This document shows positions 1 through 35,288 of a stretch of 64,000 nt of DNA, in pieces (within the stretch, counting starts at the first letter, position 1; each line of letters starts with the position of its first letter). The translations under genes were made by a program, and so were the position numbers. This DNA comes from Pyropia yezoensis (taxonomy: Eukaryota; Rhodophyta; Bangiophyceae; Bangiales; Bangiaceae): positions 31,878,685 through 31,942,684 of the forward strand of contig CM020619.1 of NCBI GenBank assembly GCA_009829735.1, in the 5' to 3' direction. Below the pieces are notes generated by a model. That model had not been told where the DNA came from and made no database searches. It worked only from the letters and a program-made list of their open reading frames with translations.

Positions 1-43
1 TGGGGGGCGGGGGCTGCCCGCGTTGCGGGGGCGGTTGGGGTGA

Positions 44-5522: not shown

Positions 5523-7465
5523 TCGTTTCCCGCCGACTTGGCGTCCGAATCTGAGGGCGAAGGGGACGACGACGAGTCCGAGGACGACGTGTCCGCCCCC
5601 TCCGTCGAGGGTGTGGCGACCGCCACCACTGGTCGAGACCCACCCTCGCGGCGTGAACGCACTTCGTTCGTAGCCGACTTCTTACTCGCATTCCTAACAA
5701 GCTGTTGGATGCGTTTACTCAACTTGGGGCAATCATATGCCCAGTGACCATCGGAGTTGCAGTTCCAACACCGATGATCAGTTCCCGGAGGGGTCTTCCC
5801 AACTGGGGAAGACGACGAGGTACCTTGGGAAGTTCCCACGGCAGCTACCACCCTCTCCTTGCGGATTCGGCGTGCCTCTCGCAACTCTCTGGCCTGGCGC
5901 GCCTCTTCCCGTTCCTTGGCCAACTCGGCCTGACGCTCCTGGCGTTGTTCTTCCCGCAACTTGCGGTAGGCCTCGCCTCTGCGGTAGGCGAACCTAGCCA
6001 ACTCGGCCAGGGTCGCCCGGGCAGTGTTATGCTCCCGGGTCTCCATCCGGACTGACCAGTGGAGTCCTTCCACAAACCGACTCTTCACCACAGCTTGTGG
6101 ATGAAGAAACCCACAAAGATTGTTGAGCTTACGGACTCGCTCCGCAAAGGACAACTCGTCCTCCGCCTCTTCCTGATGGGCTTGCGTAAACTCCTCGACT
6201 TGAGAAGCCAACGCCGCTTCATCAACCATGGCCCTCAACAACCAGTTGACGAGCTCCAAATAGGACGTCACCTCCCCAGCGCCTCCACTTGAGGAGCTGG
6301 GCATGACGGACATAAGTTCTGTCCGCAGGTCTCCCTTCGTAAACTCCTGTAGCATGTAAAAAGCCATGCCTTCACTTATGGCATTGTCGTCACAGGCTTT
6401 TGTGAAACGACGTAGGAACTCAAAGACAAGGAGGGGGGGAGTTCCATCCCACTCCGCTCTGTGCCCAAAAGAATGAAGTGCATTCTTCTTGGCACGGCCC
6501 ATAGCTCGGGCCTGGTCAGGACCATACGCCACCGACTTGTTGTGGAGAGCGTAGGTCTCACAGTCAAAGATCCGCTGGTAGACCGGGTTGGCTACCTGAA
6601 TCTTGGGCGGCACCTCACGTTGAGGGAACAGCCGCTGTGGCACTGGGGTAAGTCCACCCTCAGTGCCTGTAGTCTGGTACGGCGAGCTTGGTGTAGCCGC
6701 CGGCGTTTCCGAGGGGAACTCCCCCGTGAAGGGCGTACGCCCCACCGCGTATGGTGTGGCTCCCTCGTTGGGAGTCACAGGTGTCGCCCCCAGTTCGGGG
6801 CGACCCGAGATAGGCGTGGGGAAGGATTCCCCCTGCGCCTGTGGGCTCGAAAGCCCCAATCCGGTCTGGACATTCAGGCCATCTGGCAAACTCGCTACAA
6901 TCTGATTCAGAATAGTATTCGTCATCGTGACCACCAGGTCCGGCAAAGTCTGCCGCAACACGTTGGTCGCCTCCCGACGGACAGTTTCCGCGAGGAGTGG
7001 ATTGACGACTCCAGTTGAGTCTCGGTCCGCCTCCGGGAGTCCACCTGAGGGGTAACCACGTTCCTCAGGGGTCTCAACCGGGGGCATGGGCGCGAGCCCA
7101 TCGCCGACCAACGGAGGTCCGCCGTCCTCCGAAAGCCTAGTTGGCGATGGCTCCATGCCAAAGTTGGCTCCAACCCGAGTGGAACTCGCGGGGACAGTCC
7201 TCACCCCTTGGGACGTTCCCGTTGAGTATACCACGCGGTGGCCAGACTTCGGCCCACCCACGTCAGAAGTGTCACCCGAGTGAACTCCCGACTGAGTCGG
7301 GGTGGCCTGTTGCCCGCCCGCACTTCCAGTCCTGCTGGCTTGAGGGACCTCTAGTCCCTCTGCGACCCCAGGTAAACCCACCTGTGTCTCACCAGTATTC
7401 AAAGGCACTGAAGTACGTGCGTCACCCGCGTACTCCCCGGACGACGGGGGGTCCGAGCTAGCCAT
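5519..7465 (-). CDS. E1 Gag (capsid/nucleocapsid)
   Basis: A 648-residue Gag starting at the ATG at 7465; the open frame extends eight codons upstream without another ATG. The N-terminal 300 residues are low-complexity, rich in Gly, Thr, Pro and Ser. A capsid-like helical core follows (LLVFEFLRRF ... ELVNWLLRAM ... FVEGLH), then a highly charged Glu/Arg helix and one zinc knuckle, CWNCNSDGHWAYDC (CX2CX4HX4C), near the C-terminus, before a Ser/Asp tail. Gag forms the virus-like particle and binds RNA. The pol ATG overlaps the stop codon by ATGA. No internal stop is seen. Confidence 0.88.
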   Translation of the reverse strand: MASSDPPSSGEYAGDARTSVPLNTGETQVGLPGVAEGLEVPQASRTGSAGGQQATPTQSGVHSGDTSDVGGPKSGHRVVYSTGTSQGVRTVPASSTRVGANFGMEPSPTRLSEDGGPPLVGDGLAPMPPVETPEERGYPSGGLPEADRDSTGVVNPLLAETVRREATNVLRQTLPDLVVTMTNTILNQIVASLPDGLNVQTGLGLSSPQAQGESFPTPISGRPELGATPVTPNEGATPYAVGRTPFTGEFPSETPAATPSSPYQTTGTEGGLTPVPQRLFPQREVPPKIQVANPVYQRIFDCETYALHNKSVAYGPDQARAMGRAKKNALHSFGHRAEWDGTPPLLVFEFLRRFTKACDDNAISEGMAFYMLQEFTKGDLRTELMSVMPSSSSGGAGEVTSYLELVNWLLRAMVDEAALASQVEEFTQAHQEEAEDELSFAERVRKLNNLCGFLHPQAVVKSRFVEGLHWSVRMETREHNTARATLAELARFAYRRGEAYRKLREEQRQERQAELAKEREEARQARELREARRIRKERVVAAVGTSQGTSSSSPVGKTPPGTDHRCWNCNSDGHWAYDCPKLSKRIQQLVRNASKKSATNEVRSRREGGSRPVVAVATPSTEGADTSSSDSSSSPSPSDSDAKSAGNE

Positions 7466-7564
7466 GTTGGCTAACGATCCGTATGACACGGTCCAAGTCC
7501 ACCGTTCCTCTGAGACAGAGGGCCCCCTACACCCGGGTGCACCCGGAGGTAAAGTTTACCTCTG

Positions 7565-7582
7565 TCCCCTGCTGCTCCACCA
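7565..7582 (-). promoter_or_regulatory. E1 primer-binding site
   Basis: On the minus strand, two bases after the 5' LTR, lies TGGTGGAGCAGCAGGGGA, starting with TGG, the complement of a tRNA CCA end. The same 18 bases sit at this position in E3 and E4. It does not resemble the usual initiator-Met PBS (TGGTATCAGAGC); the priming tRNA cannot be named from the sequence alone. Confidence 0.75.
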
Positions 7583-7584
7583 AA

Positions 7585-8052
7585 TGTGGCAAAAACCACT
7601 CGCACACACAGTACCCAAGTTGGGGCGGTGTGCGAGGGCTGCCTCCCGTGTCGGGGGAACCGGAAGAAGTGCAAGTCGCACACACTCTATCCCTGTTGTG
7701 GGGCAATCCCCCCACGGACAAACAAGAAGATGGTGTGTGGTCCAACAGTTTCTTGGTCGGGACGGGGACGCAGGGCCAAGCCCCGCTGTCCCTCCCCTTA
7801 TCCCCCCAGGGTCCACTCAGAATCTCGCCACTCAGAATCTCCCACCCCAGCACCTGCCCACCGGGCCACACGAAAATTCAAGACGATAAATGCAGAAAAC
7901 CCTCAAATCCAAGTTGGATTTACTACTAAGCTAACTATCCCGAACTTAGGGAATATGGACCCAAATGCAGGGGGAGGAACGGATCAGGCTAGTGGCCTGC
8001 CGCCCCTTGCATGGCACGTGTTGCCCCCTACCTGGGGGTCAATACTGCCACA
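7585..8052 (-). repeat. E1 5' LTR (468 bp)
   Basis: The LTR begins TGTGGCA and ends TGCCACA, a 7-bp terminal inverted repeat with canonical TG...CA ends. The inner edge is fixed by the adjacent PBS. The outer edge is fixed because the sequence from 8053 (GTTACTCTCC) continues exactly in register with the 5' leader of E3 and E4. The partner LTR lies left of the window, so LTR divergence cannot be measured. Confidence 0.85.
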
Positions 8053-8124
8053 GTTACTCTCCCCAATCTACCCCCTCGCTCTCTTATTCGTGGTGATTGT
8101 TACGTCGGTTCACTGATTGTGACT

Positions 8125-10308
8125 ATGTCTACCCAAGAGACGGGGAACGTTCAAGATGACGGATCGGCGTCGACGCCGACTCCGGAGGTGACTACGGGAA
8201 CCGGGATGGGGAACCCGATCGACAACATTGAGACGCCAATGCTTTCCGGTGCCGGATCGACGTTTGGCACGGCTCGGACGGCAGGAGGCGGGGGCCCGCC
8301 TCAACTGTCGTCGACCGACCTCACTCCGCCGCCTCCTTCACCAGGGGATTCCCTGATGGCATCATTGGCCCGCATCGAGGCCCGGTTTTCCGGACTCGAC
8401 GCCCTTCGGGAGCGGACGGAGGACGCAATGGCAGTGTTGATGTCAACACGCCACACGACGGGACCCCGTCGTGTTCCTCCCACACCGGTACGGTTCAAAC
8501 CGGCCGGACTACTTTCGGAGTCCACCAGGGTCAACCCCGGTGTTGCTACTCCCGGACAGCCCCCGGACACAATGGGGTATGGATCCGACTCGTCGGCAGA
8601 GTTGGAACGGAGTCACACGGAGCGATACGCTCGGAGCACCCGAAGCGGACTCCGCGGACACGACCCGGCGGATACTTACGCCGGTGGAGAGTCGGTTATT
8701 GGCGGAGGGGGTACCCTCTCACAGTATCCCCACGACGAAGGAGGCCAGGCAAATCGGGTTCCCGAGGTGCCGACGCCTGAAGTACCACCGTCAGTAGTGG
8801 AAGCTATGACCGCGCAGGTAACTGCGAGCCTACTGAAGCGGATGGAGTCCGATGAGTTTGCTCATCAACTGGCTAAGCGACTGGATATCCAGGACGCTGA
8901 CACGGAGATCGTCAACGAGGTCTTCCGGTCGGTTCTTACTCCGGAACGTTATCGTTTGGAGGACCGCTCTACCACCGTATCGGAATCGATGCGTAATACG
9001 TCGCACCGAGCGATCCGCTCTATGCAGACCCTCATGAAGGGAGTCCCTATGTTCGGAGGGCCAAACGGACGCCCGTTGGCAGTCATCGGCTTCTTGACTA
9101 GCTTCAACGCAGCCGCGGACAAGGCCCTCGTTAACGAGGGGCTGGCCCTGGAGATCCTCCCGTTCTTTGTTGACGAACGGGTGCGAGGCATCCTTCGCCA
9201 GGCATCCCCGATGCCGGGAATGAGGGTTGCGGCCACCCCCATGGATTACCGTGGGATTCTCAAGGAGCTGCTGAGCAGTTACCTCAGTGAGGATAAGTGC
9301 GAGGACCACTACCGGGCCCTGCGCACTGCCACCGCCCAGAGCTGGGAGGATGAGGAGATGTTCGGACGACGGATTCAAGAGCTCGACTACGAGCTGGGGA
9401 AGCTCCTCGGAGAAGGGGAGCTACGGGCCATCCTGTTCGCAGGAGTACCCAACTACGTGCGGATATCCGCACGAGGCGCCAACACGGCACGGACGAACTT
9501 CAGTCGACTGATGCATATGTGCAAGTCCCTAGGGGACGCCTACCGGGTTCTACACCCGGAATGTGCCTTGGCCCCGAAGCCCAAGGGTGAGGGGGGCAGG
9601 CCCAGTCTTACCCCGGTACCGAGGCAAGAGAAGGTGGAACGTAAGGCCGCACCAGTACTGGTGGCAACCGAACATCCCCCTATTGGTGAGGATGAACCTC
9701 TAGTCGACCAACAGGGCCACCTGTTGCTACCGGCGACGCCGGTGATTGACGAGCATGGTACGGTAGCGTACATCGCCCCGGCTGGAGCCCAGTTCCAGGT
9801 CAACGAAGGAGCGGGACGGCGCGTCCCGTATGTACGGACTACGGGGCACTCCCCGGTGACGGGTAACCCTCACCAACCCTTGCCAACATGGGCGGTGCGC
9901 ACGGAGGCACCTCCGCAGATTGCGGGCCGACCCAACCGGTTGGGGGAGTCCATGTTCCGGTTGACCCAAGGACCCAAGGCCTACCAGGGAGCAGGCACTC
10001 GGGCGCCCGAGGGAGGCAACCGTAGCTACGGGGCTACCCCGATGCGAACTCAAGGGGGGACCGGCACGTCCGGGTGTATGTTGTGTGGGGATCCCCAGCA
10101 CTGGGTGTCTTCCTGCCCACTCATCCCCGAGGAGTCTCGGCGGGCAGCGGCGCAACGCAAGGCATCCACCGGGGGGTATCCCACCAGAGCACCCGGACCC
10201 GCACCGGGTAGGCAGGCAGCTCCAGGGGTTGTACTGGCCGTCGAGGAGGCACCTCCTCATCCGGATGTCCCGGCGGACAGCCCCCTACCAAGCACGGGAA
10301 ACGAGTAA
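8125..10308 (+). CDS. E2 Gag
   Basis: A 727-residue Gag. I choose the ATG at 8125 because the leader upstream aligns with E4, where the same Met is the first in frame; the open frame reaches back to 8011 only because E1's LTR happens to be open there. The N-terminus is low-complexity. The helical capsid-like region spans about residues 240-480 (for example LLKRMESDEFAHQL and LTPERYRLED). One zinc knuckle CMLCGDPQHWVSSC (CX2CX4HX4C) lies near residue 650. It differs from E4 Gag at about a dozen positions. Pol starts 8 bases after the stop, in another frame. Confidence 0.9.
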   Translation: MSTQETGNVQDDGSASTPTPEVTTGTGMGNPIDNIETPMLSGAGSTFGTARTAGGGGPPQLSSTDLTPPPPSPGDSLMASLARIEARFSGLDALRERTEDAMAVLMSTRHTTGPRRVPPTPVRFKPAGLLSESTRVNPGVATPGQPPDTMGYGSDSSAELERSHTERYARSTRSGLRGHDPADTYAGGESVIGGGGTLSQYPHDEGGQANRVPEVPTPEVPPSVVEAMTAQVTASLLKRMESDEFAHQLAKRLDIQDADTEIVNEVFRSVLTPERYRLEDRSTTVSESMRNTSHRAIRSMQTLMKGVPMFGGPNGRPLAVIGFLTSFNAAADKALVNEGLALEILPFFVDERVRGILRQASPMPGMRVAATPMDYRGILKELLSSYLSEDKCEDHYRALRTATAQSWEDEEMFGRRIQELDYELGKLLGEGELRAILFAGVPNYVRISARGANTARTNFSRLMHMCKSLGDAYRVLHPECALAPKPKGEGGRPSLTPVPRQEKVERKAAPVLVATEHPPIGEDEPLVDQQGHLLLPATPVIDEHGTVAYIAPAGAQFQVNEGAGRRVPYVRTTGHSPVTGNPHQPLPTWAVRTEAPPQIAGRPNRLGESMFRLTQGPKAYQGAGTRAPEGGNRSYGATPMRTQGGTGTSGCMLCGDPQHWVSSCPLIPEESRRAAAQRKASTGGYPTRAPGPAPGRQAAPGVVLAVEEAPPHPDVPADSPLPSTGNE

Positions 10309-10316
10309 GAGGAAGG

Positions 10317-12641
10317 ATGACCGGGGGGCGCTGGGGTAACCCAAGCAAGCCACCCCGGAGTGCCGCGGGGAGAGCCCCATGGAGAGCGCGGTTGAGCCGA
10401 CGCCGCATCAACCCCCGGGCACACCTTCCGGCCCCGACGACACGGCTTCAGGAAATTGATGACCAACCACCAAGGTTGGGAGGAGAGGACGGGATGCCCC
10501 GTCACCTGGAACCAGACAAGGGCCCTGTTCAGGATGCCCGAGCTACACCGGATATCGGTGTAGGCCACGTGCTGTTTACCTTGGAGAACTTCAAGGTATC
10601 AGCCACACTGGGGGTTGACCCCCAGTCGACACGATCGTACTACCCTGTACTGGATACCGGGGCTGGACCCAACCTTATCCGGAAGGATACCCTTCCGGAC
10701 AAGTGGCTTCCACGAGTCAGAGTGACTCGGGGACCCATCATCAAGGACGCGAACGGTCGCCTCATTCGTACGACCGCAGCGATTTCGCTGCGGGTTACCA
10801 TCGGGGAACTCACCACGGAAGTCGACTTCCTGGTGTGTGAGACCCTATCGGTGCCCTGCATACTGGGGTGCACCTTCATCAACGTTCACGTTGATGCAAT
10901 CCGGCCAGGCCGGAGGACCGTCGAGCTTCAAGAAGCTGACGGGACGAAGAGAGGACACACGGCTATCGTCAGGGACCTGACGCTACAAGGGAGCCACGTT
11001 AACGTGGCTGAGGTGTACGCAAGCGTCGAGCCGAAGACCCTTCGGTTGGCCAAGCGAACTCGCTTTGAGCAGTTGTCGGAGACAGTCCTCCCGGTTAACT
11101 GCGACCTCGCAGGCATCTGCAGAGTCCGGTCCAACCTGCGGACGTACAAGCGGCATGGGTTGACCATGGCCAACGGTCTCATAGACCTCCCAGCAGGAGG
11201 GTCGTCCCTCCTGGTGATGGCGAACTATCGCCGTAAGGCAGTCACCCTCCCGAAGGGAACTATCCTCGGGATTGCCGAGCTCTACGAAGGAGATATCCTT
11301 ACCCCTGACAAGGAAGGTCAAGTGGAACCACTTGAGGTGCTGGCGGTCGCCGAGACCACCGAGCGACAGCAACCCGATGACGGGAAGCCTAGTCGACCAT
11401 CATTACCGGCGGATATTCCGCCGAAGGACCGAGAAGCATTGAAGGCACTGGCCGAGGCTGACCTCGACCACCTTCCCCCTTCGGTAGCCGAAGGGGTACG
11501 ACGGATGCTAAGAAAGCATGACGTCATGTGGACAGGCGGAGCCTTGGGTACCATTGGGGCAACCCAACATCGTATAGACCTGGTACCAGGCGCACGACCC
11601 GCCCGGTCACAGCCGCACCGAGCGGGACCTATGCAACGAGAGATCGTTGATGGAGAAGTGAAGAGGATGAGCGAAGCGAAGGTGATACGACCTTCGATGT
11701 CGGAATGGGGTGCCCCAGTCGTCATCGTACCGAAGAAGGATCAAACTCCTCGGTTCTGCATCGATTATCGACGCCTCAACTTGGTTACCAAGAAGGACTC
11801 ATACCCGTTACCGAGGATGGATGAATGCATCGACTCCCTGGGGGAAGCTACGGTGTTTACCACCATCGACTGCAATGCCGGATACTGGCAGATCCCGGTG
11901 GCGGACGAGGATATCCCCAAGACGGCATTCGTCTGTCACAGTGGAGTGTACGAGTTCCTAAGGATGCCCTTCGGATTGTCCAACGCCCCCGCTACATTCC
12001 AGCGGGCTATCGACATTATACTGTCGGGGGTGAAGTGGCGTAACTGCCTAGTGTACCTCGATGACGTCATCGTTTTCTCGCGTAACATGGATGACCATGT
12101 GCAACATGTTGACGAGGTACTCACCCTCTTGAGGAACGCCGGGGTAACCCTGCGTCTGAAGAAGTGCGCCTTCTTCCAACAGACGGTCGAGTATCTGGGC
12201 CACCAGATAACCCCTGGTAAACTAGGGGTACTCGAAGCCAATACCCGGGCACTCCGGGATGCCCGGTTCCCTAACACCCAGACACAGCTCAAGAGCTTCC
12301 TGGGAATGTGCAATGTATACCGACGGTTCGTCAAGGACTTCGATCGGATAGCTAAACCGTGGACGGTTCTCACGAGCAGCACCTTACCCAAGGTACTCCA
12401 ACCCCCTTCGCCTAGCGAAGAGGAGGCATTCGAGTCGCTGAAGCGAGCCCTACTGTCCCCACCCGTCCTTGCGTTACCGCACAGACGGGGTACCTTCGTC
12501 ATCGATGTCGATGCCTGCGATACACAAGTGGGATGCACCCTGTTGCAGGGAGAGACGTTGATCGGTACCGATAACGTTATCCCGGACCTAAGTCCGGTAG
12601 GGTACTTCAGCCGGACACTCAACCCGGCTGAGCGTAACTAA
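10317..12641 (+). CDS. E2 Pol, N-terminal part: protease, RT, start of RNase H
   Basis: A 774-residue frame from the ATG at 10317, eight bases after the gag TAA. Protease motif DTGAG is near residue 112 and is followed by the hydrophobic flap region. Reverse transcriptase carries FCIDYRRLN (about 480) and YLDDVIVFS (about 580). RNase H begins with the VIDVDACD motif (first catalytic Asp). The frame ends at a TAA at 12639-12641, inside RNase H and before its conserved Glu; the same frame then continues with intact RNase H and integrase. E4 has the identical TAA, E3 has a sense codon there. Confidence 0.9.
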   Translation: MTGGRWGNPSKPPRSAAGRAPWRARLSRRRINPRAHLPAPTTRLQEIDDQPPRLGGEDGMPRHLEPDKGPVQDARATPDIGVGHVLFTLENFKVSATLGVDPQSTRSYYPVLDTGAGPNLIRKDTLPDKWLPRVRVTRGPIIKDANGRLIRTTAAISLRVTIGELTTEVDFLVCETLSVPCILGCTFINVHVDAIRPGRRTVELQEADGTKRGHTAIVRDLTLQGSHVNVAEVYASVEPKTLRLAKRTRFEQLSETVLPVNCDLAGICRVRSNLRTYKRHGLTMANGLIDLPAGGSSLLVMANYRRKAVTLPKGTILGIAELYEGDILTPDKEGQVEPLEVLAVAETTERQQPDDGKPSRPSLPADIPPKDREALKALAEADLDHLPPSVAEGVRRMLRKHDVMWTGGALGTIGATQHRIDLVPGARPARSQPHRAGPMQREIVDGEVKRMSEAKVIRPSMSEWGAPVVIVPKKDQTPRFCIDYRRLNLVTKKDSYPLPRMDECIDSLGEATVFTTIDCNAGYWQIPVADEDIPKTAFVCHSGVYEFLRMPFGLSNAPATFQRAIDIILSGVKWRNCLVYLDDVIVFSRNMDDHVQHVDEVLTLLRNAGVTLRLKKCAFFQQTVEYLGHQITPGKLGVLEANTRALRDARFPNTQTQLKSFLGMCNVYRRFVKDFDRIAKPWTVLTSSTLPKVLQPPSPSEEEAFESLKRALLSPPVLALPHRRGTFVIDVDACDTQVGCTLLQGETLIGTDNVIPDLSPVGYFSRTLNPAERN

Positions 12642-14483
12642 AGTGCCACCGAGCGTGAGTGCCTCGGAGTTATATGGGCAGTGCAACTGCTCCGTCCATA
12701 CCTGGAGGGCTCCAGGTTCATCGTGAGGTCCGACCACGAACCCCTACGATGGCTCCTCAACCTTGGTGACAAGGATTCCGATAGCCATGGGAGGCTAGCC
12801 CGATGGAGGCTGAAGATGGCCGAGCACGACTACCGTACCGTGTATAAGGCTGGGTCAACCCACCACCTCGGGGACGCATTGTCTCGACTCGAGACCCCGA
12901 GCGGGGATACCCGCCCGGTGGACGAGGACATCCCGGTGGTACCGGTCTGCATGGTGGGTAACGCTACCCAAGGTATGGTTAACCATACCATGGCACACCG
13001 AGCATGCCCATTGACCCTCGCGGACTTCCGCGAGGCACAAGCCAATGACGACGACTGTAGACGCCATCGCGCTAACCTGCTGGCCGGTACGGCCGGCATC
13101 TTCTCCGAGAACGAAAACGGACTCATATACCGGCGGGCACCCGCCGATGGACGACATCAAGTCGTGGTTCCCGTGTCCTTACGGCAAGCCGTCATGGAAC
13201 GAGAACACGAGAACCCCACAGCCGGACACCCGGGGGGTTCACGTATGTTCGCAGCAATGCGAAGGTTCTTCTACTGGCCAGCAATGGCCGTCGACGTGGT
13301 CGACCACGTAAGGGGATGCCACCCCTGTGCACGTAACCGCATGAGTCTACATAGGCAGGCGTCTGCCATGAAGTTATTCCCACCCGATGCGCCCAACGAG
13401 CAGGTCGCTATCGACATACTCGGGCCACTTCCGGTAACGGAAGAAGGGAACAGGTACATCCTAGTCATGTCAGACCGATTCACTAAGCTGTCACGAGCGG
13501 CAGCCATCCCGAATGATACAGCATACACGATTATGAACGCAGTGGTTGACCACTGGATCAGTGCATACGGAGTCATGAAGCAACTCCTCTCCGACAACGG
13601 AGCAAACCTGACGTCGGCATTCTGCACTAAGGTCATGGGCATGTTCGGTATCGAACCCCGTCGGGCATCCGACTACCACCCGCAGTCCAACGGGCAGGTG
13701 GAGCGGTTCAACCGCACCATCTTCAAGATGCTCCAATGCTATGTGGCGGAACACACGAAGACGTGGGACAGGCTTCTGTCCGTACTCACCCTGGCATACA
13801 ATACCAGGCTACATCGGAGCACAAACATCGCCCCATTGGAGTGGGTCATGCCACTAGGCGTCGGTAACCTGACGCTGCCACCCGGCAGGTGCACTCGGTA
13901 TGATACACCGAAGGGCCGACCCGCCGAACGCATCCACCTAGCTTGGTTGGCCAAGCTATCGTGGATGATTCCTAAACTCAAGGGTGCCCTTGACAGAACA
14001 CAACTTCGATACAAGAAGAACTTCGATGCCCGACTACGGGTGCGCAACGCTACCCCGATGACAGGTGACTGGGTTTATATCAGACACCAGAAATTCCAAG
14101 GGAACAAGCTCATGCAACCGGTCGAGGGACCTTACCAGATCCTCTACAGAGATGACCACTCTGTTATCCTCCACTCCGATACGGAGATACAACGCATCAG
14201 TATTAACGATGTCACACCAGCGCCGAAGCCGGAACAGCCTCAGCCGGTACCGGCTGGGTTGCTACATGAAGCGCTTACCACCCACCGGTCGGAAAACCCG
14301 GTGGGACCGGATGGAATCCCATACCAGGTGGAGAGCATCGTCGGACATACCGACCCAGGCCTACCAGAACCCTGGTACGTCAAAGTAATGTGGGTCGGAT
14401 ACGACTCACCCACCTGGGAACAGGCGGCAAATATACCCCGCCAACTACTCATGCCGTACATGAGGCAACGCCGCCTCCTGTAA
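12642..14483 (+). CDS. E2 Pol, C-terminal part: rest of RNase H, integrase, chromodomain
   Basis: Same reading frame as the upstream Pol part, separated only by a TAA. It has the remaining RNase H residues (ATERECLGVIW and VRSDHEPLRWL), the integrase zinc finger (EREHEN...GHPGG...CHPCARN), the DDE core (AIDILGPLPV, LSDNGANLTS, QSNGQVERFNRT), and a C-terminal chromodomain-like block (VKVMWVGYDSPTWEQ) over the last 60 residues. No good start codon follows the stop at once, so this part is made only if the stop is read through or from a copy without it. The frame ends at TAA 14481-14483. Confidence 0.88.
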   Translation, partial: SATERECLGVIWAVQLLRPYLEGSRFIVRSDHEPLRWLLNLGDKDSDSHGRLARWRLKMAEHDYRTVYKAGSTHHLGDALSRLETPSGDTRPVDEDIPVVPVCMVGNATQGMVNHTMAHRACPLTLADFREAQANDDDCRRHRANLLAGTAGIFSENENGLIYRRAPADGRHQVVVPVSLRQAVMEREHENPTAGHPGGSRMFAAMRRFFYWPAMAVDVVDHVRGCHPCARNRMSLHRQASAMKLFPPDAPNEQVAIDILGPLPVTEEGNRYILVMSDRFTKLSRAAAIPNDTAYTIMNAVVDHWISAYGVMKQLLSDNGANLTSAFCTKVMGMFGIEPRRASDYHPQSNGQVERFNRTIFKMLQCYVAEHTKTWDRLLSVLTLAYNTRLHRSTNIAPLEWVMPLGVGNLTLPPGRCTRYDTPKGRPAERIHLAWLAKLSWMIPKLKGALDRTQLRYKKNFDARLRVRNATPMTGDWVYIRHQKFQGNKLMQPVEGPYQILYRDDHSVILHSDTEIQRISINDVTPAPKPEQPQPVPAGLLHEALTTHRSENPVGPDGIPYQVESIVGHTDPGLPEPWYVKVMWVGYDSPTWEQAANIPRQLLMPYMRQRRLL

Positions 14484-14933
14484 CAACCCAACCGACACCG
14501 ACTTCGGATGTTGGGGGGTGAGGCTTATACCTACTAAGTAGGGTGTGACATGGTTATGGCAGACTTAGGTTTCTAAGTCAAATCGGACTTGGGCTTTTAA
14601 GTCCAGCCAAGCTTAGGTATCTATGTAAAACCTGAACCTTAATAAGTTAACTTAAAGGTAGAGGCTAACTCCGATAATATCGAAGTATCTAGGGGGCTTA
14701 CAAGGGAGGATGACCTCCCCAAGCCAAGACACAAAGTGAGGGAGGATGACCTCCCCAAGCATGAACCATCCGGAAGAAGTTGGACGGGAGGCAAGGCACC
14801 ACTGAGCCAGAAAAGGTACTCCCCAGGGCAGCAAACAGAGGCAAGCAATGCCCCCAAAGGGGATGAGTTTAGACTCAGTAATACCCGGCCACCATGAGGG
14901 TCACCGGGTCCCTCACTCTCACTCCCACAACCA
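14484..14933 (+). other. E2 convergent 3' intergenic region with 24-bp hairpin repeats
   Basis: This 450-bp stretch separates the pol stop from the stop of the antisense ORF. It includes three tandem 24-bp units at 14562-14633, each a small hairpin of the type CTTAGGTTTCTAAG followed by a spacer. E4 has four such units at the matching place. Further on are two copies of GGAGGATGACCTCCCC (near 14705 and 14743), themselves palindromic. Likely roles are RNA structure or convergent termination, but that is inference. Confidence 0.7.
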
Positions 14934-17464
14934 TCAGAATGGGTTACCCCCGCCAGCAGAAGGGGGCCAGTCACGCGTCGTCGCGTACACCTCCGTACTC
15001 CAACGGTCGGCTATCTCACGCCGGTTGAGCGCCTGAGCTACCTCAGCGCTAAGATGCACCAGAGTGCTGTCACCAGCCTCCACATCATCCAGAGCCATCT
15101 GTAGGCGGTTGAGCACCCAACCGAGGCAACGCGCGGTACCGACCAGCGCAGCACCTGGGGGGATGTCCCCCCAGCTAACCGGAGGCGCCTCCGTCAACTC
15201 ACGAGAGAGAAGGGCGTTAACGCCCTCATACCACAAGCGAGGACCCCCGTCGGGCAAGACGGGAGCCGGCGATGCCACCGGAAGAACCGGAGCTACAGCC
15301 GGAGGAGTGGACACCGCCACCGCCGGAGGCGGCGGTTGCTGGTGAGGAGCACGGTACGACCGTGAAGGAGGACCAGACTCCTGGGCAGAACGCCCACCTG
15401 GAGCCCGGTGGAACTCCCCACGACGACGATACGTCTCGCGGCCCCCACCAGTGGAGTCCCACTCACGGCGACGGCGACCCGTCCCCATAGGAGTCGGTTT
15501 ACCGAACCAGGGGGTTCCCACCTGGAGAGGGTCGGGCAGGACCACGGGAATACCCAGGCCGGGTACCGACTCGGTGGATGCCCACCCCTGGTATCCATCC
15601 TCACCCGAGATAACTCGGCGGATACGTAGCGAGTGACGAGGCAACGGGAGCGTTCCCGGTTGCGCGTCGCGGAACGGCGGCAAGGTCGCCACCGCCGACC
15701 AGTTCACGGCATCGTGAACGGCCACGAGCGCAGTCAGCTCGCGGGTTAACCCCGTCCCAGTAGCAATGGCGGTAACGCCTAGCTCCCCAAGATGCCGACG
15801 GACACCCGTCGGAAGATGGAAGAGCCGGCCCTGTCGGCGGGCCGACAACAGGAAGGAAGAAACCTGCCCGAGGGTAACCTCGAGGGTGAACACACCTTGC
15901 AGCACATGCGTGGGCCGAGCGGCCAGCACACTGCTGAAGTAGCGCAGGCAAGGACCGGTGTCAAACCGGAAAGCCGGGGCGGGCTCCCACCCCTCTTGCC
16001 ACCCAGGCGGGCGCAACAGAGTGTATACGGGCGCACGACCGTTACCGGTCTGCAACGCGCACGTTACATCCGTGCGGAATGGGTCCGCCATGACACCATG
16101 GTTTCGACGCCAGCTGGACGCCGACTTCAGGCCACCCATGGTCGGGAAGGGCGGCGTCAGCCACAGATACGGGGGATCCCCCGGGTAGTAATCCAAACCG
16201 GGATACCGGTTGGTACCAGGCACGAGCTGCCCGAAGGCCACAGGGGTCTGGGTAGCAGCCACCCCGCGGGCACCCGCAGGGTAATCCACCTCCGGCGGCA
16301 GCGCGGGGGCAACCAAGTCGCACACCCCAAAGGCGGGGTGGAGGGCAGCCTCAGGCCGCCCGACCCGGGCGCGCCAGAGTTGAGCATGCCGGTCATCCGG
16401 CTGGCTGAGTATCCAATGATGCTCGGCGCGAGCCGCGTCAGGCTGGGCAACCAGCCGAGCCAACTCCCGCTCCCAGCAGGGGTCCAACGGGACCGGACGG
16501 GAGGTACCTCCGCGGCGACCCGACGGGTGGAAGTCCACCGGCATCCGACCGCCCGAATCCATGGGCTCTTGCACGGTCAGGCTGCGCACCCGGGCCACCA
16601 GCTCGGGGACCGACAACGGGGGATGTCCCACCGTAGAGGCGTCGCCGCCACTCGCGGAGGCGGTACCGCCAACCGCAGAGGCGACGCCGCCACCGACCAA
16701 GCCAACGCGGCCACCCAACGGGGCAACCCGGCCCGGCCCAGGAAGAAGCGCCGGCGCCGGCGGAAGTCCAACGGGTAGGTGCACCGGCGCCGGAGCACGG
16801 GGACGAGGAGGAAAAAGTAGGGCGGGCACCCGCCCGGAGTAGCTCCCGGTGTCAACCGCCATGGGGGAAGGAGCGTCTTGACCGCTCGACGCCCGCGGCA
16901 CCGCGGGTAGAGTACCGGCGCCGGCCCCACTCGTCGACGTCGCCCCCGCCTCGGGAGGGGGAGGCACTTGGACAGCCTCGGGAGCCTGAGCGCCAGCCGT
17001 GCGGGCACCCGCACCGTCTTGACCGGCCACCCCGGGTGTCGCGCGACCACCACCACCCGCGTCAACGTCGGGGTCGCGTTGAGGATGCACCGTCCGGACT
17101 CCCGGACCACCTTGCCCAGCCGGAGTCGGCCGGGGATCGCCACTTCCGCCGAGGGCGGGCCATCTTGGGGTAGCTGCGGCGAGCCGGCACCGGCACCAGG
17201 CTCCATCCGGGCAACCGGCAGAGAGGGGGTAGAAGCCGCCACGCGGGGTTGACCGCCGGGTTGACCCCCGACCGACGGCACCGTCGTGCCGCTGCACACG
17301 GACGACAGTCCGCCGGCCGACAGACGGACGGACACCGCCGGCTCGGCGTCTTCAGACGAGCTCGCCCCGTAACGCGCGGCGGCAGGACCGACAGGCCCGT
17401 CGTCCTCCATCTCCTCCCCGATCAGGGGGTCTTCCTCCTCCCCAAGCACCTGGGGATAGGACAT
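14934..17464 (-). pseudogene. E2 antisense ORF (aORF), one frameshift
   Basis: A large protein encoded opposite to gag-pol. The 787-residue main frame (17297-14934) matches the E4 antisense protein over most of its length. The N-terminus (MSYPQVLGEEED..., from the ATG at 17464) lies in another frame, so a frameshift between about 17060 and 17160 breaks this copy. The N-terminal half is acidic then Pro/Ala-rich. The C-terminal half is well conserved: WRRNHGVMAD, TCALQTGNGRAPVYT, WQEGWEPAPAFR, LPLPRHSLRIRR, LWYEGV, VSWGDIPPGAALVG, RREIADRWSTEVYA. I recognise no known domain. The best conserved block is only about three quarters identical to E4 by eye. Confidence 0.75.
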
Positions 17465-18038
17465 GATAACGGGTGCCAGAGTCCCCCGCGCCCACAAGCC
17501 GTCAACGGCTACGACCCGGTACGGTGGGACAACCGGGACGAGCCAGGGAAGCGCGGGCACCCGCGCTTGTGACCACAAACGGCCACGAGAAGCGCCGCAG
17601 GCACGCGGGTCGACCCACGCCGCACGGGGCTACGAACGCACTCCACCCAGGCACCTGGGCGGGCCGGGGCCACACCCCCGTACGGAGCAACCAAGAGGGG
17701 TTCACCCCGAAACCGCCCCCGCGAAAAGCGGGAGCGGCCGCCCCCATTCACTCGGTAACACGAGAGGGGCTCCCCTACCACCAGACACCTGGTGGCGGAT
17801 CCGCTTGCACCACCCCTCGGAAAGGGGGGTCGTGAACAGAAACCCGCATCGGGAATTTAACGGTCCGGAAAACGGATCGTGTGTGTACCACACAAAAGGG
17901 GGCACCCCCCTCAGACAACCTCGAAAAGGGGTGTCTGTCGCGACAGGGCGCAAAGCCCCAACCGACTGGTAAACGGTCACGCGACCCACTTACATTCGGT
18001 AACCCGAATGCAACTCGACCCGAGGACGGGCCGAATCT

Positions 18039-18050
18039 AAGAGGGGAATA
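18039..18050 (+). promoter_or_regulatory. E2 polypurine tract
   Basis: AAGAGGGGAATA sits directly before the 3' LTR, where plus-strand DNA synthesis of LTR elements is primed. E4 has AAGGGGGGGATA at the same place. Confidence 0.75.
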
Positions 18051-18408
18051 TGTAGCAATATGGTTGGCCGTGTTGTGACCCTAATATTAGGGGGGCTACT
18101 TCTAACCCTTAACTTTCAATTTGGTCGTTCGTACTGGTCACGGTATCTATAAGTTACGTATGACAGAGGGACTTGCATCTTGGGGTGGAGGGTAGCTAGA
18201 AGTGTCTCCGAGAGTTTATAACGTGGGGGCCGGTGGCGAATCCACCGCCGGCCAAGGAGAACAACAAACCCCTCCCATTTGGGCTCCCATCTTGGTCCCG
18301 TGGCTTGCGCTCCAAGGACAGCAACCTTGGCCTCCCGGTGACGTTGGTGCCGATCCCCCTTGGTGAGTGTTCCCTGAGAGCGGACGTGCGACGGATACCT
18401 ATTGTGCT
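18051..18408 (+). repeat. E2 3' LTR, last three bases missing
   Basis: Begins TGTAGCAATATGG like the other LTRs of this family and runs to ...TATTGTGCT, without the final ACA. It then joins E3 sequence through a shared GTGCTT. It contains the CCCTAATATTAGGG palindrome and a TTTATAAC box also present in E4. Several substitutions separate it from the E4 LTRs (for example GTTGGCCGTGTTG against GTTGTCCATATTG). Confidence 0.88.
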
Positions 18409-18412
18409 TTAG

Positions 18413-18586
18413 TTGGACCGCCTCCAGACAGCTCTGGAGGACGTGGAGGGTGGCCGCAGCACCTTCGTCCAGTTATGCACCGAGGTACGGGCGATTGACC
18501 GTCGCGAGATTGCCGACCGGTGGAGCAAGGAGGTGTACGCGCTTACGCGTGAGTGGCCTCCCTCTGGCAGTGGGTCTACCCACTGA
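18413..18586 (+). pseudogene. E3 antisense ORF remnant (last 57 codons)
   Basis: The plus strand from 18413 encodes the C-terminus of the antisense protein (LDRLQTALEDVEGG ... RREIADRWSKEVYALTREWPPS) and ends at TGA 18584-18586. Compared with E4 it has lost exactly one codon (Thr) and keeps frame, which supports coding constraint on this strand. It is closer to the E4 than to the E2 version. The upstream part was lost at the junction with the E2 LTR. Confidence 0.8.
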
Positions 18587-19037
18587 GGAGTGTTATTGTT
18601 TGTGAGGGAGAGGGACCCGGCGACCCTTATGGTGGCCGGGTAGTAGTGAGTATAAACTCATCTCCCGCTGGGGCGTTTGCATGATACCAATGCCTGCCTT
18701 TGGGGAGTACCCCGTATGCCTCAGCCGAGGCCTGCCTCGGTTCTTTCCCGCGCCCCCCAACCCATCCTGGTTGGTTAATACTCATCAAGGTCAACCTTCC
18801 TTGGTCCGTCACTTGCCCCATGGATGAGGGTTTACATTGGTGTAGGCCTCAGGCTACTTTGAAATTATCGGAGTTAGTCCTCTCCTTCAAGTAAACTTGT
18901 AAAAGTCAGTAGCTTACTTTGCTTGCCTAAGTCCGCTCCAACTTAGTGAACCTAAGTCTTGCCGAATCCATGTGACACCGTACTTAGTAGGTATAAGCCT
19001 CACCCCCCAACAGCCGAAGTCGGTGTCGGTTGGGTTG
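18587..19037 (-). other. E3 convergent 3' intergenic region
   Basis: Corresponds to the E2 and E4 region between the pol stop and the antisense-ORF stop. It carries degenerate CTTAG...CTAAG hairpins near 18910-18960 and the conserved block around the pol stop (CCCCCCAACAGCCGAAGTCGG). No gene is seen. Confidence 0.6.
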
Positions 19038-19310
19038 TTACAGTAGGCGTCGTCGCCTCGTGTGAGGCATGAGAAGTTGGCGGGGTATATTTGCCGCCTG
19101 TTCCCAGGTGGGTGAGTCGTATCCGACCCACATCACCTTGACGTACCAGGGTCCTGGTAGGTCTGGGTCGGTCTGTCCGACCACGCTCTCTACTTGGTAT
19201 GGAATCCCATCCGGTCCTACCGGGTCATCTGACCGGTGGGTTGTAAGTGCTTCATGTAGCAACCCAGCCGGTACCGGCTGAGGCTGTTCCGGCTTCGGAG
19301 CAGGTGTCAC
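19038..19310 (-). pseudogene. E3 chromodomain fragment of Pol
   Basis: A 90-residue frame in register with E3 pol, containing the C-terminal chromodomain-like block (VKVMWVGYDSPTWEQ). It follows a nonsense codon at the end of the main pol frame and continues the same frame. It is not an independent gene. Confidence 0.75.
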
Positions 19311-19376
19311 ATCATTGAGGTTGATGCGCTGTATCTCCGTATCGGAGTGCAGGATGACAGAGTGATCATCTTTGTG

Positions 19377-21925
19377 TCAGATCTGGTACGGTCCCTTGAC
19401 CGGCTGCATGAGCTTGTTCCCTCGGAACTTCTGGTGTCTGATATAGACCCAGCCACCTGTTACCAGGGTTGCGTTGCGTACCCGTACCCGGGCGTCAAAG
19501 TTCTTCTTGTATCGAAGTTGTGTACTGTCAAGGGCACCCTTGAGCTTGGGTATCATCCACCATAGCTTGGCCAACCAAGCTAAGTGGATCCGTTCCGCCG
19601 GTCGGCCCTTCGGTATGTCATACCGAGTGCATCTGATTGGTGGCAGCGTCAGGTTACCGACGCCCATCGGCATGACCCATTCCAGTGGGGCAATGCTGGT
19701 AATGCGGTGGGGCCTGGCATTGTATGCCAGGGTCAGTACGGACAGAAGCCTGTCCCACGTATTTGTGTGTTCCGCCACATAGCATTGGAGCATCTTGAAG
19801 ATGGTGCGGTTGAACCGCTCCACCTGCCCGTTGGATTGCGGGTGGTAGTCGGATGCCCGACGGGGTTCGATACCGAACATGCCCAGGACCTTAGTGCAGA
19901 ATGCTGACGTAAGGTTTTCTCCGTTATCGGAGAGGAGTTGCTTCATTACTCCGTAAGCACTGATCCAGTGGTCAACCACTGCGTTCATGATGGTGTAGGC
20001 CGTATCGTTCGCGATTGCTACTGCCCGTGACAGCTTAGTGAAGCGGTCCGACATGATCAGGATATACCTGTTCCCTTCTTCCGTTACCGGAATCGGCCCG
20101 AGTATGTCGATAGCGACTTGCTCGTTGGGCCCATCCGGGGGGAACAGTTTCATAGCGGATGCCCGCCTATGAAGACTCATACGATTCCGTGCGCATGGGT
20201 GGCATCCCTGCACGTGGTCGATTACGTCGACGGCCATTGCTGGCCAGTAGAAGAACCTTCGCATTGCTGCGAACATGCGCGAACCCCCCGGGTGCCCGGC
20301 TGTGGGGTTCTCGTGTTCTCGTTCCATGACGGCTTGCCGTAAGGACACGGGAACCACGACTTGATGTCGTCCATCGGCGGGTGCCCGCCGGTATATGAGT
20401 CCGTCCTCGTTCTCTGAGAAGATGCCGGCCGTGCCGGCCAGGATGTTAGCACGATGGCGTTTACAGTCATCGTCATTGGCCTGTGCCTCGCGGAAGTCCG
20501 CGAGGGTTAATGGGCAAGCAAGGTGTGCCATGGTATGGTCGACCATACCTTGGGTAGCATTTCCCACCATGCAAACCGGTACCACCGGGATGTCCTCGTC
20601 CACCGTTCGGGTGTCCTCGCTCGGGGTGTCGAGTCGAGACAATGCGTCCCCGAGGTGGTGGGTTGACCCAGCCTTATACACGGTACGGTAGTCGTGCTCG
20701 GCCATCTTCAGCCTCCACCGAGCTAGCCTCCCATGGCTGTCGGAATCCTTGTCACCAAGGTTGAGGAGCCATCGTAGGGGTTCGTGGTCGGACCTCACGA
20801 TGAACCTGGAGCCCTCCAGGTATGGACGGAGCAGTTGAACTGCCCATATGACTCCGAGGCACTCGCGCTCGGTGGCACTATTGTTACGTTCAGCCGGGTT
20901 GAGTGTCCGGCTGAAGTACCCTACCGGACGTAGGTCCGGGATAACGTTATCGGTACCGATCAACGTCTCTCCCTGCAACAGGGTGCATCCCACTTGTGTA
21001 TCGCAGGCATCGACGTCGATGACGAAGGTCCCGCGTCTGTGCGGTAACGCAAGGACGGGTGGGGATAGTAGGGCTCGCTTCAGAGACTCGAATGCCTCCT
21101 CTTCGCTAGGCGAAGGGGGTTGGAGTACCTTGGGTAAGGTACTGCTCGTAAGAACCGTCAACGGTTTGGCTATACGAGCGAAGTCCTTGACGAACCGTCG
21201 GTATACGTTGCACATCCCCAGGAAGCTTTTCAGCTGTGTCTGGGTGGTCGGGTATCGCGCATCCCGGAGTGCCCGGGTATTAGCTTCGAGCACTCCCAGT
21301 TTACCTGGTGTGATCTGGTGACCCAGATACTCGGCGGTCTGCTGGAAGAAGGCGCACTTCTTGAGGCGCGGGGTTACCCCGGCGTTCCGCAAGAGGGTGA
21401 GTACCTCATCGACATGCTGCACATGGTCATCCATGTTACGAGAGAAAACGATGACGTCATCGAGGTGCACCAGGCAGTTACGCCACTTGACTTCCGACAG
21501 TATAATGTCGATGGCCCGCTGGAATGTGGCGGGGGCGTTGGACAATCCGAAGGGCATCCTTAGGAACTCGTACACGCCACTGTGACAGACGAACGCTGTC
21601 TTGGGGATATCCTCCTCCGCAACGGGGATCTGCCAGTATCCGGCATTGCAGTCGATGGTGGTAAACACCGTAGCTTCCCCCAGGGAATTGATGCACTCGT
21701 CCATCCTTGGTAAAGGGTATGAGTCTTTCTTGGTAACCAAGTTGAGGCATCGAAAATCGATGCAGAACCGAGGGGTTTGATCCGACTTCGGTACGATCAC
21801 GACTGGGGCGCCCCACTCCGACATCGAAGGTCGGATCACCTTAGCTTCGCTCATCCTCTTCACTTCTCCATCAACGATCTCTCTTTGCATCGGTCCCGCG
21901 CGATGCGGTTGCGACCGCGCTGGTC
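19377..21925 (-). pseudogene. E3 Pol remnant (RT, RNase H, integrase)
   Basis: Open frame covering RT (FCIDFRCLN, with YLDD changed to HLDD in CLVHLDDVIVFS), RNase H (VIDVDACD, SATERECLGV, with AAT where E2/E4 have TAA) and integrase (AIDILGPIPV, LSDNGENLTS, QSNGQVERFNRT). The open frame extends to 22049 only through out-of-frame Gag sequence, so I start the homologous part at the deletion junction. It has no protease and no start of its own, and ends at a TGA where E2 reads Leu. The Tyr-to-His change in the RT active site is a further sign of decay. Confidence 0.85.
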
Positions 21926-22152
21926 GAGTCCCCTGGTGAAGGTGGCGGCGGCGTGAGGTCGGCAGAGGACAGTTGCGGCGGTCCGCCGCCCCCGGCCGTC
22001 CGTGCTGTACCAAACGTCGATCCGGCACCTCAGAGCATCGGCGTCTCAATGTTGTCGATCGGGTTACCGATCCCGGTTCCCGGGTTCAGCTCCGGGGTCG
22101 GCGTCGACGCCGATCCGTCATCTTGAACGTTCCCCGTCTCTTGGGTAGACAT
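21926..22152 (-). pseudogene. E3 Gag 5' fragment
   Basis: Starts at the Gag ATG (22152) with the family N-terminus MSTQETGNVQDDG, but a TGA at 22030-22032 replaces a Ser codon after 40 residues. Gag-like sequence continues to about codon 83 and then jumps out of frame into the RT region. It cannot give a functional Gag. Confidence 0.8.
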
Positions 22153-22358
22153 AGTCACAATCAGTCAACCGACGTAACAGTCACCACGAATAAGAGAGCG
22201 AGGGGGTAGTTGGGGGAGAGTAACCGTAGATCGCAGTCAACCGCAACCACTCAAAACAATCAAACAGATCGCAGCACCACGAGTACAAGAAAAGGACTGG
22301 ATCCCTATCCGTGTGCCAGGGCCGAAGACGGCGTCACCACAAGGGTGACGGAAACCCG

Positions 22359-22376
22359 TCCCCTGCTGCTCCACCA
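22359..22376 (-). promoter_or_regulatory. E3 primer-binding site
   Basis: Minus-strand TGGTGGAGCAGCAGGGGA, one base from the LTR; the same 18 bases as in E1 and E4. Confidence 0.75.
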
Positions 22377-22377
22377 A

Positions 22378-22741
22378 TGTAGCACAATAGGTATCCGCTG
22401 CACGTCCACTCTCAGGGAACACTCACCAAGGGGGATCGGCACCAACGTCACCGGGAGGCCAAGGTTGCTGTCCTTGGAGCGCAAGCCACGGGACCAAGAT
22501 GGGAGCCCAAATGGGAGGGGTTTGTTGTTCTACCTTGGCCGGCGGTGGATTCGCCGCCGGCCCCCTCGTTATAAACCCTCGGAGACACTACTAACTACCC
22601 TCCACCCCAAGATGCAAGTCCCTCTGGTCATACGTAACTTATAGATACCGTGACCAGTACGAACGACCAAATTGAAAGTTAAGGATTAGAAGTAGCCCCC
22701 CCCTAATATAGGGTCACAATGCGGACAACTATATTGCTACA
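22378..22741 (-). repeat. E3 5' LTR (364 bp)
   Basis: Begins TGTAGCACAATAGG and ends ATATTGCTACA, with the TGTAGCA/TGCTACA terminal inverted repeat of the family. It differs from the E4 LTRs at several positions, including a small deletion in the CCCTAATATTAGGG palindrome. Sequence right of 22741 is not LTR. Confidence 0.9.
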
Positions 22742-22742
22742 C

Positions 22743-25263: not shown

Positions 25264-25275
25264 TATCCCCCCCTT
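25264..25275 (-). promoter_or_regulatory. E4 polypurine tract
   Basis: Minus-strand AAGGGGGGGATA immediately before the 3' LTR. Confidence 0.75.
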
Positions 25276-32871: not shown

Positions 32872-32879
32872 CCTTCCTC

Positions 32880-35287: not shown

Positions 35288-35288
35288 A

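Follow-up and report, generated by a model that had tools for sequence, protein, structure and literature searches.

Why should the genes of a retrotransposon be packed with short inverted repeats that have almost no loop? The question is raised by a window of 64,000 nucleotides (nt) from Pyropia yezoensis (Rhodophyta; assembly GCA_009829735.1, contig CM020619.1, positions 31,878,685 to 31,942,684), "the window" being this whole stretch throughout. An earlier note on it, made from the letters alone, had described the coding regions of one retrotransposon family as saturated with perfect palindromes and hairpins. This family is labelled E2 here, and the neighbouring second family, of the Ty3 type, is labelled E0. 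The saturation is real and currently unexplained; it is supported by counts in 2-kb pieces and by codon shuffles, and is stronger than first stated. Dense hairpin arrays, with about one short perfect hairpin per hundred bases and a loop size specific to the family, occur in several Ty3-type families of P. yezoensis. Their stems are protected between copies, changing 2-3 times less than other sites. The loop specificity, the arrays of further families and the protection of stems were not part of the earlier note. Other Ty3-type families outside the window are called F-A, F-B, F-C and F-D, and single loci carry the letter L and a number (L010 or L015, for example).

Hairpin excess in the window

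The 16 inverted repeats that had been listed are all exact, with stems of 7-9 base pairs (bp) as delimited. For the window as a whole, inverted repeats with a stem of at least 6 and a loop of at most 4 were counted in 2-kb pieces, and the expectation was taken from dinucleotide shuffles. Between 8 and 36 kb, 13 of 14 pieces hold 12-28 repeats against 1.9-4.8 expected, an excess of 4-11 times; the exception, 22001-24000 (7 against 2.8), is mostly sequence between elements. The first four pieces, which belong to E0, hold 7-10 repeats against 2-3 expected, and the 14 pieces of the part from 36 to 64 kb hold 1-8 against 2-9.

Does the excess persist when protein and codon use are both kept? In codon shuffles of this kind, 200 per open reading frame (ORF), the observed count at stem at least 6 was reached by 0 of 200 in ten E2 ORFs, namely nine of copies 1 and 2 (the antisense ORF of copy 2 being taken as two pieces) and the pol ORF of copy 3. 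With stems of at least 8, significance is lost in the antisense ORF of copy 1, where 19 of 200 shuffles reach the observed count. Six ORFs of the 36-64 kb part were taken as host genes, without annotation. The absence of any excess from neighbouring host genes, seen before by eye, stands for five of these six, in which 153-197 of 200 shuffles reach the count, and does not stand for 36477-37478, with 4 repeats against 0.81 (reached by 2 of 200) and none at stem at least 7. The earlier note had named counts inside the shuffled range, or an equal density in host genes, as grounds for giving up its claim; the outcome in E2 and in the host ORFs gave no such grounds. As a property of a family the saturation holds for E2, but it is neither unique to E2 nor general to all retrotransposons of the genome.

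In a random sample of 20 regions of 10 kb the clearest excess coincides with sequence of the E2 or E0 type. Three regions of the sample deserve separate mention. L026 has a broad hairpin excess; positions 2501-5000 of L020 (GC 0.77) show a 3-4 times excess across all loops of 3-9; and the count in positions 1-2500 of L019 is inflated, which we read as simple repeats from its even-loop-only pattern. The hairpins are spaced with weak regularity, the coefficient of variation being 0.69 against 0.88 for a hard-core random arrangement with minimal distance 18 (p = 0.026).

Loop size and closing pair among families

In E2 copy 1 the excess falls on central gaps of 0, 2 and 4 nt (28, 30 and 28 against about 2.5 expected each); gaps of 1 and 3 give 7 and 12, and gaps of 5-8 give 5 each. 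The repeats are thus mainly one class of hairpin with a 4-nt loop, and the excess is not generic. Counted as such at stem at least 6, there are 56 tetraloop hairpins against 3.5 expected in copy 1 (8053-18050) and 61 against 3.1 in the internal part of copy 2, while other loops of copy 1 reach 15 against 2.6 (3 nt) and 9 against 3.8 (5 nt). The tetraloop is closed by G-C in 50 of 56 cases in copy 1 and 54 of 61 in copy 2, and its middle is a pyrimidine followed by a purine. Against codon shuffles at stem at least 5, tetraloops number 23 against 4.6 in gag, 26 against 3.0 in pol, 22 against 2.1 in the integrase ORF and 32 against 4.1 in the antisense ORF.

E0 has another geometry. At stem at least 5 (positions 1-7700), 5-nt loops number 46 against 9.3, while 4-nt loops stay near expectation (14 against 10.1); loops of 3 and 7 nt are also raised (38 and 32), partly nested within the same hairpins. 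The loop centre is A-[C/G]-T, and C-G closes 25 of the 46. An asymmetric pentaloop motif of E0 oriented on C, RACTN, was tried as well and is not claimed (purine at position 1 in 33 of 41, pyrimidine at position 5 in 25 of 41, p = 0.09). In both E2 and E0 the stems are richer in G+C, and the loops richer in A+T, than the background.

Is the array a feature of all such elements? A survey of 20 reverse transcriptase regions, together with the elements of the window and of the sample, gives a mixed answer. F-D has mainly 3-nt loops (19, 18, 17 and 19 in four copies against about 3), with 11-14 loops of 4 and 5 nt; F-C, seen as one element, favours loops of 5-9 spread over 3-12; and L019, an element like E0, has loops of 3 and 5 nt. 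There is no comparable hairpin excess in F-A (9 loci), F-B (6 loci), L015 and L013, nor in L024; L013 and L024 are possibly decayed copies. With the preferred loop of each family picked post hoc, from the same data, 0 of 200 codon shuffles at stem at least 5 reached the observed count in four E2 ORFs, two E0 ORFs, F-C and two F-D copies; at stem at least 6, E0 gag was reached by 5 of 200 and one F-D copy by 9 of 200. Non-preferred loops lie mostly inside the shuffled range. No strand asymmetry of the loops, in pyrimidine or keto content, was found in five families.

On a reverse transcriptase tree of 13 rows, with 5 of 10 inner branches open, the families with hairpins fall in one clade together with L015 and L013, and F-A and F-B lie far outside. 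Such a tree does not fix the number of gains or losses of the array. Relatives of the elements were also sought in viral contigs, with no match.

Conservation of stems between copies

In seven comparisons of E2 (stem at least 6), stem sites are 1.6 to 7 times less different than other sites. The same is seen at third codon positions: 3 of 170 changed in stems and 200 of 1914 elsewhere between copy 1 and L010 (p = 3.6e-5), 1 of 170 and 83 of 1914 between copies 1 and 2 (p = 0.013), and 5 of 86 and 196 of 940 between copies 1 and 3. Outside gag-pol, in what is mostly the antisense ORF, the numbers are 12 of 212 and 449 of 2636. When the stem masks were shifted by 20-80 bases, 0 of 32 shifts gave a value as low as the true stems in each of nine E2 comparisons. 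At stem at least 5 the ratio of stem to other substitution rates is 0.31 in E2, 0.48 in E0 and 0.52 in F-D, against 0.90, 0.76 and 0.93 for stems with wrong loops (12-40) taken as control; in the families without hairpins it is 0.80 (F-A) and 1.26 (F-B). As for the loops of E2, 0 of 23 fourfold sites changed in three comparisons. For E0 (1-7700), third codon positions have a higher rate of change inside the loops than elsewhere in two of three comparisons, with 4 of 12 and 4 of 17 loop sites changed against 7-8% of the rest.

When does the deficit arise? Among eight E2 copies (stem at least 5), differences that are shared, that is inherited, occur at 5 of 559 stem sites and 161 of 3340 others, and private ones at 15 of 559 and 123 of 3340 (shared against private, p = 0.009). 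Since the deficit is strong in shared and small in private differences, it arises at least largely in the transposing lineage; the private differences include more than changes made after insertion, since for some copies the sample contains no close relative. A chromosomal mutation bias of the host was considered as the source of the hairpins and rejected, for the ORFs of the 36-64 kb part, with one small exception, lack the excess, and at stem at least 5 the stems show only a mild shortage of private differences (0.027 against 0.037); at stem at least 6 this shortage is larger (0.016 against 0.0375).

How hairpins fit codons and how stems change

E2 hairpins are found mainly at places that let a synonymous position pair with a constrained one. 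In gag and pol (stem at least 5) the loop starts in codon phases 0, 1 and 2 in 34, 28 and 9 cases, and in the antisense ORF in 14, 18 and 0. This bias avoids third positions that face each other, which fits a pairing that uses third positions. Given three inner pairs, each further pair is added with a probability of 0.42-0.60 against about 0.26 expected, an odds ratio of about 2-4 that is of the same order as the drop in substitution rate.

How do the stems change, when they do? In E2 gag-pol each of the 13 non-identical stem comparisons shows a single mismatch, which lies in the 3' arm in 8 cases and in the 5' arm in 5; in F-D single mismatches account for 48 of 64, and in 6 of 64 two changes fall in one arm only. 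No arm is preferred (58/63, 16/23 and 26/23; unpolarised). Loop inversion was found in 1 of 198 shared hairpins (110 of E2, 36 of E0, 52 of F-D), in a 4-nt loop differing at two bases, while in 4 of the 110 E2 loops three or four bases vary from copy to copy. Six stem pairs of E2 have changed on both sides with pairing kept; of five that were listed, the antisense ORF holds four and the integrase ORF the fifth, and each joins codon position 2 with position 3. Stepwise substitution under selection fits these changes better than the copying of one arm from the other.

Which strand

Do the hairpins act in RNA of the sense strand? Stems folded in plus-strand RNA would be expected to accommodate G-U pairs there, but sense-strand G-U is not preferred. 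Among stems otherwise perfect over 7 bp, single mismatches are A-C in 15 and G-T in 8 cases in E2, 2 and 0 in F-D, and 5 and 5 in L019x; the same count in F-C gives 33 and 18 (expected 17.4 and 11.1). Where a pair is intact in one copy but mismatched in a second, the ratio of A-C to G-T on the sense strand is 43:22 in E2, 13:7 in E0 and 18:7 in F-D, or 74:36 pooled. Wrong-loop controls give 220:173, 63:85 and 47:35, so that part of the A-C tilt in E2 and F-D is background; a stratified Mantel-Haenszel test against these controls gives p = 0.009 (0.012 with continuity correction). A sense-strand A-C reads as G-T on the opposite strand, so it is probably in minus-strand nucleic acid that the hairpins act. 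The tilt of E2 appears in gag-pol (27:16) and in the region of the antisense gene (16:6) alike, and is therefore independent of the coding strand. Predicted folding has a mean z of -2.29 for sense and -2.42 for antisense (17 windows each), against -0.52 (10 windows) in the 36-64 kb part.

Two of the causes suggested at the outset thus lose ground. Structured genomic RNA is weakened as a reading, as sense-strand G-U has no privilege, the tilt is to the other strand and folding is equal on both. Template-switch copying during reverse transcription is not supported either, for most stem changes are single substitutions, found in both arms, and loop inversions are nearly absent.

Elements in the window

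Repeats make up 48% of the P. yezoensis genome, the majority being long terminal repeat (LTR) retrotransposons, according to its published description (PMC7423979). By domain order, LTRs and target duplication E2 is an ordinary Ty3-type retrotransposon. Self-alignment finds three copies within the window, and at least 111 scored matches were found genome-wide. Over the two pol ORFs the Pfam domains run RVT_1, RNase H, Integrase_H2C2 and rve, which is the Ty3-type order, and the protease-like region scores below the Pfam cut-off. Gag of E2 has no Pfam match; a CCHC zinc knuckle pattern is present in gag of E2, E0 and F-C. The LTRs of copy 2 begin and end with TGTAGC...GCTACA, in the usual TG...CA form. 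In this stretch copy 1 is without its 5' LTR and about 150 bp of leader; the 5' LTR of E0 (7585-8052) stands there and abuts it. Coordinates of the elements and of several hairpins are collected in Table 1.

Table 1. Elements, reading frames and example hairpins, in positions of the window
Feature	Positions	Strand	Description
E0	1..8052	-	second Ty3-type family; gag 5519-7489, pol 1845-5522, 5' LTR 7585-8052; no 3' end found
E2 copy 1	8053..18408	+	Ty3-type LTR retrotransposon; from self-alignment, LTR limits, hairpin counts
E2 gag ORF	8011..10308	+	765 amino acids as listed; E2 sequence itself from 8053; one CCHC zinc knuckle
E2 pol ORF	10317..12641	+	aspartic protease-like (below Pfam cut-off), reverse transcriptase, start of RNase H
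E2 pol continued	12681..14483	+	end of RNase H, then integrase (Pfam)
E2 antisense ORF	14934..17297	-	787 amino acids; coding as judged from substitution pattern
E2 copy 1 3' LTR	18051..18408	+	final three LTR bases absent
E2 copy 3, partial	18417..22744	-	shares hairpin excess; from self-alignment
E2 copy 2	24901..35651	-	LTRs 24901-25263 and 35289-35651, 99.2% identical; 5-bp target duplication
Perfect palindrome in gag	9456..9473		7 bp with 4-nt loop ATAT
Hairpin	10678..10699		stem 9, loop ATAC, closing pair G-C
Hairpin	10774..10793		stem 9 with 2-nt centre, or stem 8 when counted with tetraloop ATTT
Hairpin	10877..10896		stem 9 with 2-nt centre
Perfect palindrome	10992..11009		7 bp with 4-nt loop TTAA
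Hairpin	11194..11213		stem 8, loop TCGT
Hairpin in integrase ORF	13016..13035		stem 9 with 2-nt centre

The antisense ORF of E2 is constrained at the protein level, as its differences between copies by codon position (0.19/0.125/0.35) are mostly at third positions. No Pfam domain was matched in its protein, and 7 relatives were found among 8000 scored candidates, 5 of them in Pyropia vietnamensis. Pol proteins resembling that of E2 occur in P. vietnamensis as well. Between pol and the 3' LTR (14484-18050) copies 1 and 2 are about 17% different, and in the gag and pol ORFs about 0.5-5%. This suggests either recombination between subfamilies or a fast-evolving antisense gene.

Some further observations concern single loci. 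The whole 10 kb of L009 (G000:C1:809073-819072) consists of tandem units of about 883 bp, each made of E2 LTR, leader and the start of gag. In the pol frame of F-C (L050:3-1220 +; G000:C2:13763579-13766578) a weak chromodomain match, below cut-off, is followed by a match to a Dam-like DNA adenine methyltransferase (PF05869, 31 bits, cut-off 28.1), so that F-C may be a retrotransposon carrying an adenine methyltransferase. In the 36-64 kb part, 45321-46988 and 50341-52009 form an inverted duplication of 1.67 kb with 97.9% identity.

Proposed explanation and its rivals

What, then, could the hairpins do? The account we prefer, to which we would give slightly less than an even chance, is that they are selected, act in the retrotransposition cycle, more likely in the minus strand, and are bound by a family-specific protein of the element. 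The hairpins would be kept by purifying selection while the lineage transposes, and would act as folded single-stranded nucleic acid. The minus strand of such elements is made as first-strand complementary DNA (cDNA), and this cDNA, or an antisense transcript, would more likely be the acting strand than plus-strand genomic RNA. The putative reader would be encoded by the element, with a preference for loop size that differs between families. The nucleocapsid part of Gag is the natural first candidate because of the CCHC knuckle in gag of E2, E0 and F-C; reverse transcriptase or integrase would come next. The array might work through many weak and equivalent sites, like the dispersed packaging signals of some RNA viruses, and its effect might be that the strand is condensed or protected within the particle, or marked as the family's own. 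A more elaborate version is possible, though we hold it doubtful: a family-specific hairpin code would extend over the whole element, genes included, be displayed in first-strand cDNA and be read by the element's own nucleic-acid-binding protein, so that its own cDNA is recognised, condensed or protected, and sibling families would be kept apart by a switch of loop size (3, 4, 5, 5-9).

Several observations weigh against this explanation. The loop rule is not strict in every family, given the broad loops of F-C (3-12) and the 4- and 5-nt loops of F-D; in E2 itself, 5-nt loops in pol exceed all 200 shuffles, and those of the integrase and antisense ORFs lie near the top (5 of 200 and 9 of 200). 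Loop preferences are nearly symmetric under reverse complement, which a reader of RNA loops would not require. Loop bases of E2 are not clearly conserved, differing more than other sites in five of seven comparisons and less in two, so that a protein reading the loop cannot be very strict about sequence. Together with the near symmetry, this points to recognition of geometry, that is of loop size and closing pair, and not of a loop word. The strand evidence is moderate, as the tilt fails to reach significance in any one family when set against that family's wrong-loop control (p 0.14, 0.09 and 0.24), and the static near-miss count of E0 is reversed, with G-T 10 and A-C 6. Taken alone, E0 shows no significant stem conservation at silent sites and no bias of loop phase at stem at least 5 (10, 10, 12). 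With stems of at least 6, few private differences fall in stems either (5 of 319 sites against 138 of 3676), and shared and private differences do not contrast significantly (p = 0.25). Of 154 stem pairs in the antisense ORF (stem at least 5), 24 are disrupted between copies 1 and 2, and just 4 differ in a way that preserves pairing.

Could the hairpins be a by-product of copying? During reverse transcription the growing strand could fold back and serve as template for its own second arm (quasipalindrome correction, or template switching); perfect inverted repeats would then be made and restored without any function, and the loop of each family would reflect the geometry of its enzyme. We consider this rather unlikely, although it agrees with arms that are perfect and give G-U no privilege, and with loops whose near symmetry is what loop inversion would yield. 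Template switching is the published model for arm copying; it reportedly generates hairpins and preserves them, and has been linked to 4-nt loops in rRNA genes (PMC8794818). Correction combined with protein constraint could also reduce silent stem changes in coding regions, and both the low private differences in stems at stem at least 6 and the few E2 loops differing at three or four bases would suit it. But the trace that such copying should leave is scarce: E2 gag-pol has no multi-base replacement of one arm, two changes in one arm only are found in just 6 of 64 cases in F-D, neither arm is favoured, and a single loop among 198 is inverted. Still less probable, in our judgement, is a role of plus-strand hairpins, in the genomic RNA, as dispersed signals by which Gag packages it, of the sort put forward for several RNA viruses. 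The abundance of degenerate hairpins over the genome, each family with its typical loop class, their somewhat regular spacing, and the dispersed stem-loops with a loop motif reported for capsid proteins of viruses would all speak for it; sense-strand G-U is nevertheless not tolerated, the tilt is opposite, and the antisense strand folds as strongly.

A general structuring of element RNA or DNA, against silencing by host small RNAs or damage specific to single strands, would need no specific reader. It would account for the spread over the whole element, antisense gene included, and for the G+C-rich stems and A+T-rich loops of E2 and E0. Yet a generic advantage leaves unexplained why E2 has 4-nt over 5-nt loops in all four ORFs, why E0 uses 5-nt loops while its 4-nt loops stay within the shuffled range, and why sibling families of the same genome are without arrays, so we give it a low probability. 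Finally, palindromes in the DNA might be targets of the element's own integrase, as landing pads for self-nesting. LTR retrotransposons are reported to have a weak palindromic preference at insertion sites (PMC6911290), and the loop motifs are dyad-symmetric; the target duplication of E2, however, is 5 bp (one copy) against hairpin centres of 4 nt, and five E2 insertion flanks (window copies 2 and 3, L010, L019 and L024) are by eye not such hairpins. This last possibility appears very remote.

Whichever account proves right, the coding sequence of these elements holds a second conserved structural layer, dense and with a geometry set per family, and the sibling families with and without arrays in one genome are a natural experiment. 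Do Ty3-type elements know their own nucleic acid by many dispersed hairpins and not by one 5' signal, and do such signals act in cDNA? Both questions can be tested now.

Comparison with known systems

Is anything similar known? Judged by titles and the beginnings of abstracts, the matches listed in a literature search, in which subscription journals are mostly outside coverage, contain no report of such arrays in a retrotransposon, and the main text of an inverted-repeat survey of 118,019 genomes, so far as accessible, does not have the word retrotransposon (PMC13155455). In its architecture E2 resembles Retand and other plant Ty3 elements, which also have an antisense ORF between pol and the 3' LTR; the antisense proteins of Retand mostly carry PF04195, whereas that of E2 has no Pfam domain, and hairpins are not mentioned for Retand in the accessible part of that paper (PMC11963269). 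The genomic RNA of yeast Ty3, of the same superfamily as E2, has been probed by SHAPE-MaP (selective 2'-hydroxyl acylation analysed by primer extension and mutational profiling). It has short palindromes in its 5' region, six of 6 nt at the 5' end, one of them functional and acting in dimerisation, and the available text mentions no array across gag and pol (PMC11381356). Hairpins made by template switching share with those described here the perfect stems and the favoured 4-nt loops, but their expected footprint, clusters of changes in one arm and loop inversions, is rare here (PMC8794818).

In kind, the array is akin to dispersed packaging signals and to genome-scale ordered RNA structure, but it lacks the tolerance of G-U expected of a folded plus strand. 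Like the dispersed RNA packaging signals described for some plus-strand RNA viruses and for hepatitis B virus, it consists of many short degenerate stem-loops that overlap coding sequence and have a loop class common to the genome; unlike them, its stems are strictly Watson-Crick, with no tolerance of sense-strand G-U and a lean to the minus strand, and its reader is putative. The ordered structure of persistent RNA viruses likewise has hairpins over the whole genome, partly on synonymous sites (PMC3695492). What sets the elements of P. yezoensis apart from it is a loop size set per family, one dominant closing pair in E2, and folding that is symmetric between the strands.

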